Below are positions 1 through 6,633 of a stretch of 64,000 nt of DNA, piece by piece (the stretch's first letter is position 1; each line of letters starts with the position of its first letter). The notes under the pieces were generated by a model, which saw only the letters and a list, made by a program, of their open reading frames with translations, was not told the DNA's origin and did not search any database. The translations under genes were made by a program, and so were the position numbers. The stretch spans positions 1 through 64,000 of the forward strand of contig JANXBU010000012.1 in the NCBI GenBank assembly GCA_025060505.1, in the 5' to 3' direction. Source of the DNA: Candidatus Calescibacterium sp. (GTDB lineage: Bacteria > Calescibacteriota > Calescibacteriia > Calescibacteriales > Calescibacteriaceae).

Positions 1-3000
1 AAAGACCAACTCATTTCCTGGATTACTACCCAGAACATCTCCAACTGATAGATTACTTGTTATCCACGACATTGAATCCGTATAACTTACACTAGACAGA
101 ACGGAACCAGATGGCTTAGCTATGAAAACCCAATCCGTGAAGTTTGTTGCTGAAAAGCCATAGTATACACTTCCCGCAAAGCTCACAGGAGTTGGAGCAA
201 TGTATGTTACAGTATCTGCGAAGCAAATTCTGAAATCCTCCTTCAGACCAAGAATAACATCTCCACTGTACTCGTTGTTGGAGTATATATTCCCGCCAAC
301 TCTGCTCCAAGCTACCTCTGGAACAGCACCTCCTCCAGCCAAAATCCTCAGGTTTCTTCCCTCACCATAAACCAAAAGTCCATCTATAGATAAAGGCGAT
401 GTTCCTACAGAAGAAGTTCCAGTTGTATTAGAGAATATCTGAATTCCATCTGTCAAATCAAGTGTGTAGATGTGTCCGCTTGAATTCCCAACACTCACAC
501 GGTCTGACTGTATCAACGATGGAGAAGCTGGTGAACCTCCAAGGTTTCTCCACCAAAGAACTCTTATCTCAAATGTTGTATCAACTGGTGGAACTCGTGT
601 TACCTCAACTGCATAGAATCTTCCACCCTGTGTAGAAACTCCCAGAAACTTCTGACCTCCTCTGTTGTATACGGAAATAACCCCGGAAATATTTTCTAAA
701 ATACTTGTTAAATTCTTTGAATAGTTCATCCCAGAATGTGTAACAAATATTATTTGTCCGTTTGATGTTCCAGCATAAATACCATCATCATCAGCAGAGA
801 GGGATGTGCTTATTGAAAACGGTGCAGAGCATCCACCGCCAGAAAGGTTCAGATTCCTCCAGCATATACTTCTGTTTGCACCAGTACCTAATATATAATA
901 AACTTTCCCACCAGCTAGTATTGGTCCAGATGTAATATTAGATTCCTCAGCTGCGGAACCAATTAGAGATAGATTGGAAATATTCAATCTGATTACCGAA
1001 ACGCCAGCTGTTATATAAACCGAGTCAGATACCGCACACCCCAGAACATTAGAACCAGCATTGTAGGTATTTTGAAGATTCAAATTGCTATCTAATCTCA
1101 AAACAGAACCACCAGATGTCACAGCTATAACCGTTACAACTCTCCCATACTCTTTGATACACAGTCCGTTTATAGCAGTTGAAGCATTATATACACCTGC
1201 AATCTGGTAGTTTGTTATGTTGACTGCGTATATGTATCCTGTTGTTGTTCCAACATATAACCTTCCAGAAACTCCCGACGCAGATATAACAGATATTGCA
1301 CCCGTGGAGCCAAGAGTTAGTGATGAAATTTGCGTTCCGTTACCAAAAGTTGAAATACATTTTACCTCAGAATATGCTGAGTTTGCAGATGGAGTCGTTC
1401 TGTAAGCTCTCACTCGGTAGCAGTAGTTTGTATTTATAGCAGTTGAACTATCTATATAGAACGAAGTATTTGCTACGGTTGTTGCAATTTGTGTCCAAAC
1501 TCCTCCACTGAAACGTTCTATTGTGTACCCATTTTCTACTGCAGATCTATCTACCCAAGATAGTTTGACAACACTCGTTTCCTGCTCAACATACAAAGGT
1601 GTCGGTCTCAAAATACCATATACAGAAATATCGGGAGTTTTACCATAAGCAAAAACACCTACTGCTTGATAGTACGAGCTTACACTGTAAGTATAAGTAG
1701 TCCCCTCAGAAACTGCGCCATCTGTATATGAAACAGTGTTGGAACCAACTACCGCAAGCTGGCTCGTACCTTTCCTGATAACATACCCAGTTTCATTTGC
1801 TGAATTATCCTGCCATGTTAAAATAGCTGCTGCAGAAGAACCAAACTCTTCAAACGAAACTTCAAAGTTCTGTGGGACCGCTGGAGCAACAATACATCTT
1901 GATACACCATCTGCCCACTCAGATAAACTTGTTGTTCCCGCACCCGGTATATCTATAAAACTTGCAACACGAAAACAATACTGTGTCTCTGGCAAAAGTG
2001 TATATGTTCTGGTTCTCTGCACACCTGTTTGAGACTTAGTAGTAGCATCAGAGTACCAATATTCACGAGTCCAGGAGCTATCACCAGCTTTTATTCTATC
2101 TATTACAAAGCCGTCCTCGTTTGTAGAATTATCAACAAACGTAACAGTAAATACGGTTGGACTTATTCCCTCCGTCACAGCAGTAACTCTCAGGTTGAAT
2201 GGTGGATTTGGAGGTCTAGCCGTACACTTGACTGCTGTATAAGATGAACATCCTATTCCGTTACAAGCAGCCAGCCTGAAACAAATAGTCTGACCAGCTC
2301 CCAGCGGAGCGTGATTGTAAAGAGTTGAATTCTGACCGCAGTTCTGTCCCGGTGTTCCTGTTGTGCAGCTTGCAACAACTGTAAAAGGACCCGAGGAAGT
2401 TGGAGCAGATATAAGACTGTAGTATGTCTCTCCGACAACATCATTCCAAACAACACGAGCTATGTTTGGATTAACGAAATACACATCAAAACCAGTTGGT
2501 ATCGGCGGAACACCTCCAACCCTGATAGCAATATCGTCTGCCTCAAATTGTGAATCTGTTGAACAAGTTCCCGTTCCACCCATTGCTATTCTTATCACAT
2601 ACCAGTCATTTGTAGAAGGAGTGAAACTAAATGTTTTGTTCTCAACTGCTCCGGAACCCGAGCAGGTCTGAGTTGTTCCAATCTGAGTGAAGTTGATAGT
2701 TGAAGTTCCAGCAGAAACATAAGCTCTGATCTGAGTTCCAGCAGTTGCACAATATACTCTAGCCGTGACACTTATCGGATAACCGCTCTGGAATGAAACT
2801 GGGGATGAGACAATTATCCTTTCTATTGAATTACCTGTTCCAAAGTATGTTCCTCCTCCTTGATCCACACAGGAGTTGAGCCAAGTATTCGGTGTGTTTG
2901 TTTCATTTCTACCAAGTATTGAATCTCTTGAAACTACAAGCTCACAGGTTTGACAATTACTCACACCTCCTCCGCAAGCAGGAACCCGCCAACTTGGATT

Positions 3001-6000
3001 ATATGTAGCACAGTTTGTATTATCAGATGGAACAGTAGCACAATCCCAAACATATGAAGAACAACCACTTGCATTGCAGGCACGCAAAGCATAACATCTA
3101 TAAGTTCCCTCTGGCAGAGGTTTATCTATATAAAAGGTTGAGTTTGCAGCTAAGGGAGAAGCCGGATGCGGATACCAAGACGAGTAGTTAGTGTTATACG
3201 TATCTGTCCACCTCAACTCGTAATAGGTTTCACCAGATACATCTATCCAAGATAGGGTTAATGTGTCCGGAGCAACACCATGAACATCAAAGTTTATAGG
3301 TGCTTGCGGAACTCCGACTACAAAAACAAGATCGTCCGTATCCCCATTTATTCCTGTTGCACAAACCTGACCTGATGCGAAATCTGAGCCCTGAAACATA
3401 ACACGAATAGCGTGATTCCCAACAACATTCGATAAGGTTATTATCTTTGTGTAAAGAACATAACCCGGTCCCGAACAAATCGATAGATTGTTCTCCACAA
3501 CAGACCATGTAGTAGGATTATTTGCATTACTTGTATATAGAACTCTCAATCTATCATTGAAGTAGTTCGGGTAAATCGTATTGCAATTTACAAGAACTCT
3601 GATCTCAGCAGTAGCACCCGGACTAAATGTTCCAGCAAAGCTTTTTATTTCTACCCTTTCCACACTTTCTGTTTGAAGATAAGTCCCAGCAGCTGTACTA
3701 TCTTCACATTTTGCTGTAGAGAGCGTATTTGGCTGATTTGTCTCCGGTGTAGATATATTATCTCTTGATCTTACCAGATCACAAGTTGAGCACTGAGATG
3801 CACCACCGGGACATTTTGGAGTATTATAAGCAGGATCTCCATCTGCTGTCGTATTATCAAAACCTGCACAAACAGGAAGAGAAGAAGGCGGGACAGCTTT
3901 TACATAAAATATGGTATCGTCAGCATCTCGGTAATTTAGGAGTGAAGGGGCTGGACAAATTCCATTTTGAGCAGATGCTCCCGGAGCGTAAATAATAATA
4001 GATCTTATAGCATGCCAACCCTCCGCATTATCCAATTGTTGAGTAGAGGTAAAAATAAAAGGCTCTCTATTAGATGAACCACTAGTTGGACAGAAAATTG
4101 TACCCACATGTTTCCAGTTTACATTTGGCGAAGAAGTCGTAACTCCTGAGGCATAGTGAAAGATTATCTGGTTTGCAGCTGGAAAACAAAAAGCAAGAGC
4201 CGAAATTTCTATCAACTGCCCACCTTCAAAATTTCCAGATGCAGCCAAACTCTTTATACTCACTCGCCTTATCTCCTCATCTTTCAAGCCAGGATCATCT
4301 TCTGGCGTATCCGCGCACCCGTTATATATTGTATTCGGAGTATTCGGTTCAGATGGATCTGCGGTTGTTCCAGCTCCACAGTTCTGATAACCAGCTAAGT
4401 TCTCACCGCTTGTAACAGTAGTATTTCTACACCTTGCAATCCCACAAGTTCCACACCATCCCTTTGTTGAATCTGAACAAATCGGGGCTAATAAAGCCGA
4501 ATTATAAGTTGCACACTGGAATGACGTCGGTAGAGCCTGAATTTTGAAAACAAAGTCATCGTGATCTCTTACAGCTGGTGTGTTGAAGCAAGCAGTATTG
4601 TTTGCAGCATTAGTACTTTGATACCTAGCTCTTATAGCAATTGCTCTATTTGCTGGAAGGTTTGCCGGAAGTGTTACAAAAGCAACACAAGTTTTCCAAC
4701 CCCCCCCTACACCAACAGTATTACAGTAAAAAGTAGCAGTTCCCGGATTTTGATTACAGACAGCTGAACCAAAGTAAGTCCATGATACAGTGTTAGCAGT
4801 AGCATCTGTTGTGTAAAGTATATCAATTGTATGACTTGCAGCAGAGCAGTAAGCTCGAACTGTAAGCTTCACAACTTGCTGAATAGGTCTATTTGCTTCA
4901 AAAAATCCGCTCTCTGACATAGCTTCAACTTGTATTGACTCTATTCTACCTGAATCAGTTCCACCTACATCAGCATTAGCACAGGGACTTGTACTTATGA
5001 CATTAGGTTGGTTTGGCTCAACAAGACCTGTTGCATTGTCTCTTCCATTGAGCAATCCGCACGACGAGCAGCTATCCTCGTTTGCAGGACACTTTGGTAC
5101 ATTGAAAGCAGGATCACCATCAGAAGTTGTATTATCAAAGACAGCACAGACCAAAGATTTTGGAGCCAAAAAACCACCCTTGCTATCTTCTACCTGTGGT
5201 ATATACGGCAAAGAGGTCTCCACAGAAACAGAAGATTTTGCCTCCATCTCCTGAGCTAACCGAAGTGAAAGATATGCATCTGCAACAAATCTATTATCAA
5301 AAAAACGTTCGCTTATGTTCCCAGAGGTTTGTTTGTCTCTTACAACTCTCACTATTGCATTTTTGACATCCGGAGCTCTCAGATCTGGTCTCATACTTCT
5401 TATCAAAGTTGCTAATCCCGCAATAAGCGAAGCCGCATACGATGTACCAGTCTTCAGACAATACGTATTATTCAAACACAGAGTAAAAATACTTTCTCCC
5501 GGAGCATATACATCAACTATCGGACCGAAATTTGAGAAACCAGATATGTATCCATTACCAGTTGAACCAACTATGATTATATTCTCTGGAAAAATATCTT
5601 TTACACTCGCAGCTACTCCCGCATACCTTCCATCTATTGACTCATTCCCAGCAGACTGCACAAACAGAACATCATAATACCTCACATACTGAAATACCAA
5701 AGAAAACACCTCTCTGTGATATGCTATAATTTGCTCTGATGGAGAGCCGTTCCATCTTAATCCACCAGCAAAAAGAATAACTTTGACCTTATCTACCAAA
5801 TATAGTATGTCCTCAACAAGTGAGCTCAGTGTAGTTTGTGATACCCTCACAACTATTCCAGAGTTTCCCGACCAACGCCAAACTGCCCCAGCTATTCCTT
5901 TTCCATTAGCTCCAAGTGCTCCGAGAACTCCTACAACAGATATTCCATGCTCTACCAAATCCTCCGCTCCGCCTAAACTTTCGTATTCAACAACTGGGGG

Positions 6001-6633
6001 TAAATCCTCATGCAAACCGAATCCAAATTCTATAACTCCTACCTTTATATCTGACCTATTATGTATTTTCCAAGCGAGTGGAAAATTCATGTATTCAAAG
6101 TACCAGTTGTTTCCAGCAGGTGTTTGCTCCCACGTATCAAAAAGTGGATCTGGCGGAACCTCTGCTCCATTTATGAAAAACGGCTCAACCTTCATATTCG
6201 GAATAGCTTTTATATCACCATCAAGTGATCTCAATTCGTTTATAGCTCCGAAAACTCTTTCTGGACTATCAAAATCACCAATAATCTGCAAAATAGCTCC
6301 GGGTTTTTGACCATAAAGTAAAACCTTTCCTCCTATTCTCCATCCCCGTGCAGTTACTATATTTCTGATATTTTCCAATTTTTGATCTAACGACTCCTGT
6401 GAGTCAGACAAAATAGAAACAAGCACCTGATTTTTAGCAAATTCCAAACCAGATTCATCTTGAATAAAATCTTCTGCTGGCTCAAAACTGGATTCAAAAT
6501 TTATAAATTTTTGTTCAACTACTCCCTCCTTCTTTGCTGTCTTACAAGAAGCAAAAAACAGTGGCAAGGAAAACAGTGAAGTCAATAAACCATTTAAGAA
6601 AAATCTATGTAATCTTGTTCTTTCTCCTTTCAT
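1..6633 (-). CDS. giant subtilase-like (S8) lipoprotein with Cys-motif modules, FN3 domains and propeller-like C-terminus (3' partial)
   Basis: The frame is open from an ATG at 6633 to the left edge, giving 2211 residues without a stop; the C-terminus lies outside. Residues 1-30 look like a lipoprotein signal with a lipobox-like FFASC. Residues about 60-150 resemble an I9-type propeptide. The peptidase core shows GVIEFGFG with Glu202 where S8 enzymes have the catalytic Asp, His229 in EHGISVVGVLGA, Asn330 in SAGNES and Ser398 in GTSYAAS. From residue about 490 come four copies of a Cys-motif plus beta-sandwich module (first Cys 496, 707, 922, 1198), with one fibronectin III-like domain before the fourth and about four after it (about 1375-1750). 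From about 1760 to the edge there are propeller-like blades of the type LYVGTTTGYIYAVN. Likely an exported, lipid-anchored surface protease or adhesin. Whether Glu202 supports catalysis is unknown. Confidence 0.85.
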   Translation of the reverse strand, partial: MKGERTRLHRFFLNGLLTSLFSLPLFFASCKTAKKEGVVEQKFINFESSFEPAEDFIQDESGLEFAKNQVLVSILSDSQESLDQKLENIRNIVTARGWRIGGKVLLYGQKPGAILQIIGDFDSPERVFGAINELRSLDGDIKAIPNMKVEPFFINGAEVPPDPLFDTWEQTPAGNNWYFEYMNFPLAWKIHNRSDIKVGVIEFGFGLHEDLPPVVEYESLGGAEDLVEHGISVVGVLGALGANGKGIAGAVWRWSGNSGIVVRVSQTTLSSLVEDILYLVDKVKVILFAGGLRWNGSPSEQIIAYHREVFSLVFQYVRYYDVLFVQSAGNESIDGRYAGVAASVKDIFPENIIIVGSTGNGYISGFSNFGPIVDVYAPGESIFTLCLNNTYCLKTGTSYAASLIAGLATLIRSMRPDLRAPDVKNAIVRVVRDKQTSGNISERFFDNRFVADAYLSLRLAQEMEAKSSVSVETSLPYIPQVEDSKGGFLAPKSLVCAVFDNTTSDGDPAFNVPKCPANEDSCSSCGLLNGRDNATGLVEPNQPNVISTSPCANADVGGTDSGRIESIQVEAMSESGFFEANRPIQQVVKLTVRAYCSAASHTIDILYTTDATANTVSWTYFGSAVCNQNPGTATFYCNTVGVGGGWKTCVAFVTLPANLPANRAIAIRARYQSTNAANNTACFNTPAVRDHDDFVFKIQALPTSFQCATYNSALLAPICSDSTKGWCGTCGIARCRNTTVTSGENLAGYQNCGAGTTADPSEPNTPNTIYNGCADTPEDDPGLKDEEIRRVSIKSLAASGNFEGGQLIEISALAFCFPAANQIIFHYASGVTTSSPNVNWKHVGTIFCPTSGSSNREPFIFTSTQQLDNAEGWHAIRSIIIYAPGASAQNGICPAPSLLNYRDADDTIFYVKAVPPSSLPVCAGFDNTTADGDPAYNTPKCPGGASQCSTCDLVRSRDNISTPETNQPNTLSTAKCEDSTAAGTYLQTESVERVEIKSFAGTFSPGATAEIRVLVNCNTIYPNYFNDRLRVLYTSNANNPTTWSVVENNLSICSGPGYVLYTKIITLSNVVGNHAIRVMFQGSDFASGQVCATGINGDTDDLVFVVGVPQAPINFDVHGVAPDTLTLSWIDVSGETYYELRWTDTYNTNYSSWYPHPASPLAANSTFYIDKPLPEGTYRCYALRACNASGCSSYVWDCATVPSDNTNCATYNPSWRVPACGGGVSNCQTCELVVSRDSILGRNETNTPNTWLNSCVDQGGGTYFGTGNSIERIIVSSPVSFQSGYPISVTARVYCATAGTQIRAYVSAGTSTINFTQIGTTQTCSGSGAVENKTFSFTPSTNDWYVIRIAMGGTGTCSTDSQFEADDIAIRVGGVPPIPTGFDVYFVNPNIARVVWNDVVGETYYSLISAPTSSGPFTVVASCTTGTPGQNCGQNSTLYNHAPLGAGQTICFRLAACNGIGCSSYTAVKCTARPPNPPFNLRVTAVTEGISPTVFTVTFVDNSTNEDGFVIDRIKAGDSSWTREYWYSDATTKSQTGVQRTRTYTLLPETQYCFRVASFIDIPGAGTTSLSEWADGVSRCIVAPAVPQNFEVSFEEFGSSAAAILTWQDNSANETGYVIRKGTSQLAVVGSNTVSYTDGAVSEGTTYTYSVSSYYQAVGVFAYGKTPDISVYGILRPTPLYVEQETSVVKLSWVDRSAVENGYTIERFSGGVWTQIATTVANTSFYIDSSTAINTNYCYRVRAYRTTPSANSAYSEVKCISTFGNGTQISSLTLGSTGAISVISASGVSGRLYVGTTTGYIYAVNITNYQIAGVYNASTAINGLCIKEYGRVVTVIAVTSGGSVLRLDSNLNLQNTYNAGSNVLGCAVSDSVYITAGVSVIRLNISNLSLIGSAAEESNITSGPILAGGKVYYILGTGANRSICWRNLNLSGGGCSAPFSISTSLSADDDGIYAGTSNGQIIFVTHSGMNYSKNLTSILENISGVISVYNRGGQKFLGVSTQGGRFYAVEVTRVPPVDTTFEIRVLWWRNLGGSPASPSLIQSDRVSVGNSSGHIYTLDLTDGIQIFSNTTGTSSVGTSPLSIDGLLVYGEGRNLRILAGGGAVPEVAWSRVGGNIYSNNEYSGDVILGLKEDFRICFADTVTYIAPTPVSFAGSVYYGFSATNFTDWVFIAKPSGSVLSSVSYTDSMSWITSNLSVGDVLGSNPGNELVF
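2525..5148 (-). repeat. four copies of a Cys-motif plus beta-sandwich protein module
   Basis: Within the giant protease gene, a unit of about 180-210 residues occurs four times, starting near nucleotides 5148, 4515, 3870 and 3042. Each has a CxxC followed by a conserved R[DN] (SCSSCGLLNGRDN, WCGTCGIARCRN, QCSTCDLVRSRDN, NCQTCELVVSRDS), then ExNxPN and a further Cys (EPNQPN, EPNTPN, ETNQPN, ETNTPN), then a strand-rich stretch starting with a motif like R[IV]xxIxV and ending in a Cys. Copies 1 and 3 are closest: both contain FDNTT[SA]DGDPA[FY]N. I do not recognise it as a named domain. The even Cys content suggests disulfides or metal binding outside the cytoplasm. Confidence 0.7.

Follow-up and report, generated by a model that had tools for sequence, protein, structure and literature searches.

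The described structures that come closest to the module reported here are beta-sandwich domains. The C-terminal carbohydrate-binding domain of Wzt, in particular, was described as a jelly-roll that binds the cap sugar of the O-antigen (PMC9445017). The CARDB domain of PF1109 is a second such sandwich, one structure of which (3idu) was solved with two metal ions. In addition, exported peptidases carry accessory domains such as the P domain, PPC, FN3 and Big_7. We describe here a Cys-rich module, four copies of which occur in one protein encoded in a 64,000-nucleotide stretch of DNA from Candidatus Calescibacterium sp. (contig JANXBU010000012.1, positions 1 to 64,000; hereafter the window), and which constitutes a genuine domain family, not described before but familiar in kind. 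In the literature that was searched, the signature motifs occurred in no paper, and such a domain was nowhere described.

The host protein is encoded on the minus strand, in an open frame that runs from position 6633 to position 1 (2211+ aa). Its 3' end is cut by the end of the contig (G000:C19), which starts at window base 1, and the C-terminus is therefore missing. The order of its parts is a lipoprotein signal, an S8 domain, modules 1-3, an FN3 domain, module 4, more FN3 domains and a beta-propeller. The sequence of the signal peptide (6544-6633) contains a probable lipobox Cys, Cys30 (...LFFASC), and a Cys after the hydrophobic leader is also present in the relatives of the protein in the genomes G002 and G004 and in a paralogue on contig C18; this common Cys suggests that the host protein is a lipoprotein. 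The Peptidase_S8 domain (5332-5967; Pfam PF00082, aa 223-434, E=1.4e-18) is followed by a stretch without any Pfam match, aa 435-1586, and it is this gap that the four modules occupy. Further FN3-like domains (1336-2508) were recognized from sub-threshold Pfam matches (fn3 at aa 1587-1657 and Interfer-bind, also FN3, at aa 1715-1762) and, for the remainder, by inspection, and a PQQ-like beta-propeller begins at 1311 and runs to base 1 (Pfam PQQ_2, sub-threshold). The G002 relative, L023, is complete at 2547 aa, and its open frame runs on past the start of the propeller into VDVDGDG-type repeats. The C18 paralogue (L027, 4347 aa) has an S8 domain, PQQ repeats and an FN3 array and no module match; window 1-200 is 88.5% identical to L027:2099-2298, a similarity that may explain the break in the contig. 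A broken copy of the host-protein gene, with many in-frame stops, lies on a short contig of G004 (L026, G004:C132:1-3005), a genome that has two other copies of the gene.

The active-site positions of the subtilase were read from an alignment with relatives and solved subtilases. His229, Asn330 and Ser398 are present, and Glu202 (window 6030-6028), just upstream of the Pfam match, replaces the catalytic Asp, such that of the Asp-His-Ser triad of an active S8 subtilase the host protein has only the His and the Ser. Owing to this replacement, the protease of the window may be inactive. As the same position is occupied by Glu in G002 and by Asp in both G004 and the C18 paralogue, part of the host-protein family (the window and G002) probably consists of pseudoproteases.

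The original prediction placed four related units at 2525-5148, the first three in tandem and the fourth set apart by an FN3 domain, and this arrangement was confirmed. On the minus strand, copy 1 (10 Cys) spans 5151-4528, copy 2 (10 Cys, including an extra pair of which one Cys lies in an insert) 4521-3889, copy 3 (8 Cys) 3873-3301 and copy 4 (8 Cys) 3018-2518. Linkers of about 2-5 residues separate the tandem copies, and an FN3-like stretch at about 3300-3025, recognized by inspection and by its 41% identity to the stretch at 2215-2520, lies between copies 3 and 4. The units measure 167-211 residues, a slightly wider range than the 180-210 first given. They align with 19 invariant columns (four rows), and HMMs built from any three copies scored the remaining one at 51.7-92.4 bits, whereas 2000 shuffles of each copy reached at most 11.2 bits. 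The second motif proposed, ExNxPN, is present throughout (EPNQPN, EPNTPN, ETNQPN and ETNTPN in copies 1-4). The first is also found in every copy (CSSCGLLNGRD, CGTCGIARCRN, CSTCDLVRSRD and CQTCELVVSRD), but its true spacing is CxxC-x-[LI]xxxR[DN] and not CxxC-[IL/V]xxxR[DN].

To what extent these features define a family was seen in an alignment of 61 members, window copies included. With the numbering of copy 3, C28, C56, C171, E44, P48, D180 and D181 are invariant in 61/61 rows. C21 completes a set of four universal cysteines, being present in 60/61 rows; the exception, L111, looks on inspection like a misaligned CNDSPC. The CxxC itself is thus not a signature of the family, because only its first Cys is universal and the second is lineage-specific. 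A metal or redox role for the CxxC was also rejected, since relatives beyond the lineage lack the second Cys, which copy 2 of G002 lost together with the N-terminal Cys.

Non-universal cysteines are gained and lost in pairs. C97 and C132/133 occur together in 18 rows, are both missing in 43 and never occur singly, a pattern that may reflect only one or two events on the tree. In the lineage of the window, all 15 units have even numbers of Cys (8, 10 or 12), reached by separate paired changes. Besides the joint loss in G002, copy 1 of G004 on C92 has two Cys fewer than copy 1 elsewhere, and copy 2 of G004 has one more pair in addition to the extra pair of copy 2. In many myxobacterial copies, an upstream Cys is instead accompanied by an additional one in VCGCDTG. 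Given these paired changes, the non-universal cysteines probably form disulfides. The likely map for copy 3 is C2-C31 and C97-C133, both taken from co-occurrence, with C21-C28 and C56-C171, which we infer. The "disulfide-knotted surface domain" first proposed is supported in its paired cysteines, exported context and beta-sandwich, but the module seems disulfide-stapled: what is seen is joint gain and loss of cysteines, and nothing points to a knot.

The original prediction recognized no known family in these units, and none emerged. Among the 61 members scanned, no Pfam-A family reached its gathering cut-off where scores were listed. The commonest match was CBM_4_9 (PF02018), in 16/61 members with a best E of 1.4e-4; the one instance with a listed score reached 17.1 bits, below the cut-off of 25.9. 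The four window copies had only chance-level Pfam matches, with none to CBM_4_9 or choice-of-anchor families. Nor did any NCBIfam family reach its curated cut-off, as judged from the scores of the listed instances for the 61 members. CoaZ_rpt_PGGG and choice_anch_J, each of which matched 4 members (best E 4.1e-4 and 0.013), scored at most 16.8 and 15.7 bits against a cut-off of 30 for both, and membership in the CoaZ or choice-of-anchor families was rejected after single units were checked and the scores stayed under the cut-off. No PDB chain matched the modules by sequence or profile. Reelin, found with a 17-row profile (E=0.011), disappeared with the 61-row alignment and was discarded as a homologue.

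The module is not confined to this genome: HMM and profile searches found relatives in other bacteria and in archaea. An HMM from the window copies alone recovered 76/76 external units at 51-123 bits, with shuffles at 8.6 or less. Between them, a first search of nearby genomes and a profile search that covered 386 genomes turned up the module in three members of the window's family and in four other genomes, and a named scan found 58 loci with it. These belong to Myxococcus, Corallococcus, Pyxidicoccus, Archangium, Hyalangium and Anaeromyxobacter; to Acidobacteriota, including Thermoanaerobaculia; to one metagenome-assembled genome (MAG) each of Omnitrophota, Lysobacterales and Deltaproteobacteria; and to four MAGs of Woesearchaeota/Nanoarchaeota, with the reservation that the MAG assignments, that of the Omnitrophota MAG above all, may include contamination. 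By phylum, the module occurs in 3/5 genomes of the window's own phylum, in 77/193 sampled genomes of the myxobacterial phylum (that of G032, assigned to Myxococcota by a locus match to Citreicoccus), with up to 18 matches per genome, and in 14/199 sampled genomes of a second phylum (that of G086), most likely Acidobacteriota, as the G086 locus L033 has the same module sequence as the Thermoanaerobaculia MAG L094. Some myxobacterial-phylum genomes with up to 18 matches (G526, G553 and G569) show an expansion of proteins that have one accessory domain in common. The archaeal units (L099, L105, L107 and L111) form one branch (98/97), which suggests an ancient transfer between bacteria and archaea; in L105 the module is on a subtilase. 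A tblastn search with copy 3 found no module on plasmids. A viral origin was considered and dropped, since viral contigs yielded no relative of the module and no viral fold matched it convincingly.

In these relatives, the 76 units lie on 64 open frames, some of them truncated where the contig or locus stops. One unit is present in 54 frames, two in nine and four in one, and in 42/64 the last unit ends 30 residues or less from the end of the frame. The partners include S8 peptidases (L105, L104 and L109, and L071 with a propeller), M28 peptidases (L055, L056, L076 and L077), M36-like peptidases (L087, L093 and L095), kelch, Big_7, PKD, FG-GAP and others, L071 (S8, FG-GAP propeller and module) coming near the architecture of the window protein. 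In L098/L032, L048 and L050, the module directly follows the signal peptide. Because its positions and partners are this varied, the module is a mobile exported domain and not a C-terminal sorting signal.

The same distribution bears on the proposal that the units serve to lengthen secreted proteins. As a structural spacer, the modules would only lengthen and stiffen the chain, so as to distance the N-terminal part from the propeller or to keep both off the membrane, a role suggested by the three direct tandem copies and the FN3 domains between functional parts, by tandem pairs elsewhere (G411:C578 and G586:C3) and by the many disulfides, which would fit a rigid rod. However, most relatives carry a single copy, commonly close to the end of the frame, where there is nothing to separate, and in the few cases just named it stands straight after the signal peptide. 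Pure lengthening fails to explain such single terminal copies and is not supported as a general role of the family, and we consider a spacer unlikely. That the module so often ends S8, M28 and M36-like peptidases could instead point to an aid to folding or maturation, or an export or sorting signal, of the attached peptidase, in the manner of P-domains or C-terminal sorting domains. This appears quite improbable, as the module is also internal, follows signal peptides and occurs on kelch and other non-peptidase proteins, and the host protein of the window combines a lipoprotein signal with copies that lie inside the chain. Moreover, the M28 and S8 catalytic domains are unrelated, and one chaperone common to both is therefore unlikely.

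Models from AlphaFold2 for copy 3 (pLDDT 89.7, pTM 0.88) and copy 4 (pLDDT 92.3, pTM 0.90) both show a Cys-rich N-terminal cap with short strands, followed by a seven-strand beta-sandwich. With Foldseek, the best PDB match of copy 3 was the Wzt carbohydrate-binding domain (E=1.8e-4, probability 1.0, TMq 0.41, TMt 0.52), and no Wzt-type domain reached a query TM of 0.5 or more with this copy (TMq 0.41-0.44, TMt up to 0.55). Copy 4 matched CARDB best (E=8.2e-4), with Wzt 8dku at E=1.6e-3 and TMq 0.45. The models thus resemble PDB structures only at the level of the fold, with query TM values no higher than 0.45, and the best match is not the same for both copies, so a carbohydrate-binding role is a lead and not a result. 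The conserved polar residues of copy 3 (E44, N49, D58, E69, D178, D180 and D181) suggest a common site, or may be structural or metal-binding instead. The near-invariant acidic residues, found immediately ahead of the first core strand and where the last one begins, together with the metal ions of 3idu, a structure near copy 4, would fit a calcium-dependent structural or protein-protein docking domain, in which these residues would coordinate Ca2+ and the module would dock with another protein; with query TM values of 0.33 or less for the CARDB matches, we regard this as very unlikely.

We favor a non-catalytic accessory or binding module of exported proteins, a reading to which we give about an even chance and whose binding function we infer. 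The module would be an exported, disulfide-stabilized beta-sandwich of about 170 residues, in which a Cys-rich N-terminal cap with a conserved E-x-N-x-P-N loop leads into a seven-strand sandwich whose last strand opens with DxDD[LIV]. On the secreted peptidases and further exported proteins that carry it, it would bind a glycan or some other cell-surface or substrate polymer.

In a tree of 32 units, a branch with moderate support (85/86) set the 15 lineage units apart from the others. Within the lineage, copy i groups with copy i across the window, G002 and G004 (99/97 to 100/100), indicating that the duplications are older than the split of these genera and that the copies have not been homogenized since, which in turn suggests a separate constraint on each position of the array. 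In our reading, the four window copies go back to duplications in a common ancestor of the window's family of genomes and form a fixed array, flanked by a lipid-anchored subtilase domain that is probably degenerate and by the FN3/propeller region; there they would expose several binding faces at the cell surface. A bolder version, which we hold only tentatively and think rather doubtful, is that a single class of surface polymer is the target of a whole family of recognition domains, common to predatory myxobacteria, Acidobacteriota, DPANN archaea and the sparsely sampled phylum of the window, and that the four diverged copies on the lipid-anchored pseudo-subtilase make up a multivalent adhesin with distinct specificities.

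A domain that 77 of 193 sampled myxobacterial-phylum genomes encode, in many cases on secreted peptidases, is without a Pfam or NCBIfam entry. With a curated family, many stretches that now lack an assignment could be annotated in such peptidases, some of which come from predatory bacteria, and the module raises a clear experimental question, that of its binding partner.

Compared with known systems, the module is like the Wzt C-terminal carbohydrate-binding domain (6o14, 8dku) in its beta-sandwich core, this being the closest structure for copy 3, but identity is only ~16% over an alignment of about 130-140 columns, and the Wzt domain forms a strand-swapped dimer as part of an ABC transporter. 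The CARDB domain of PF1109 (2kl6, 3idu), the top match of copy 4, is likewise a beta-sandwich, but differs in its low query TM (0.28-0.33), 11-16% identity and extent of about 110 residues. The weak matches to CBM_4_9 and choice-of-anchor J / Z lie over sandwich strands where positions were listed, whereas the Cys cap and the ExNxPN loop fall outside the matched parts. With peptidase accessory domains (P domain, PPC, FN3, Big_7), the module has in common its position and its partners on exported S8, M28 and M36-like peptidases; it is nonetheless a separate sequence family, and Big_7 and FN3 occur beside it in the same proteins.
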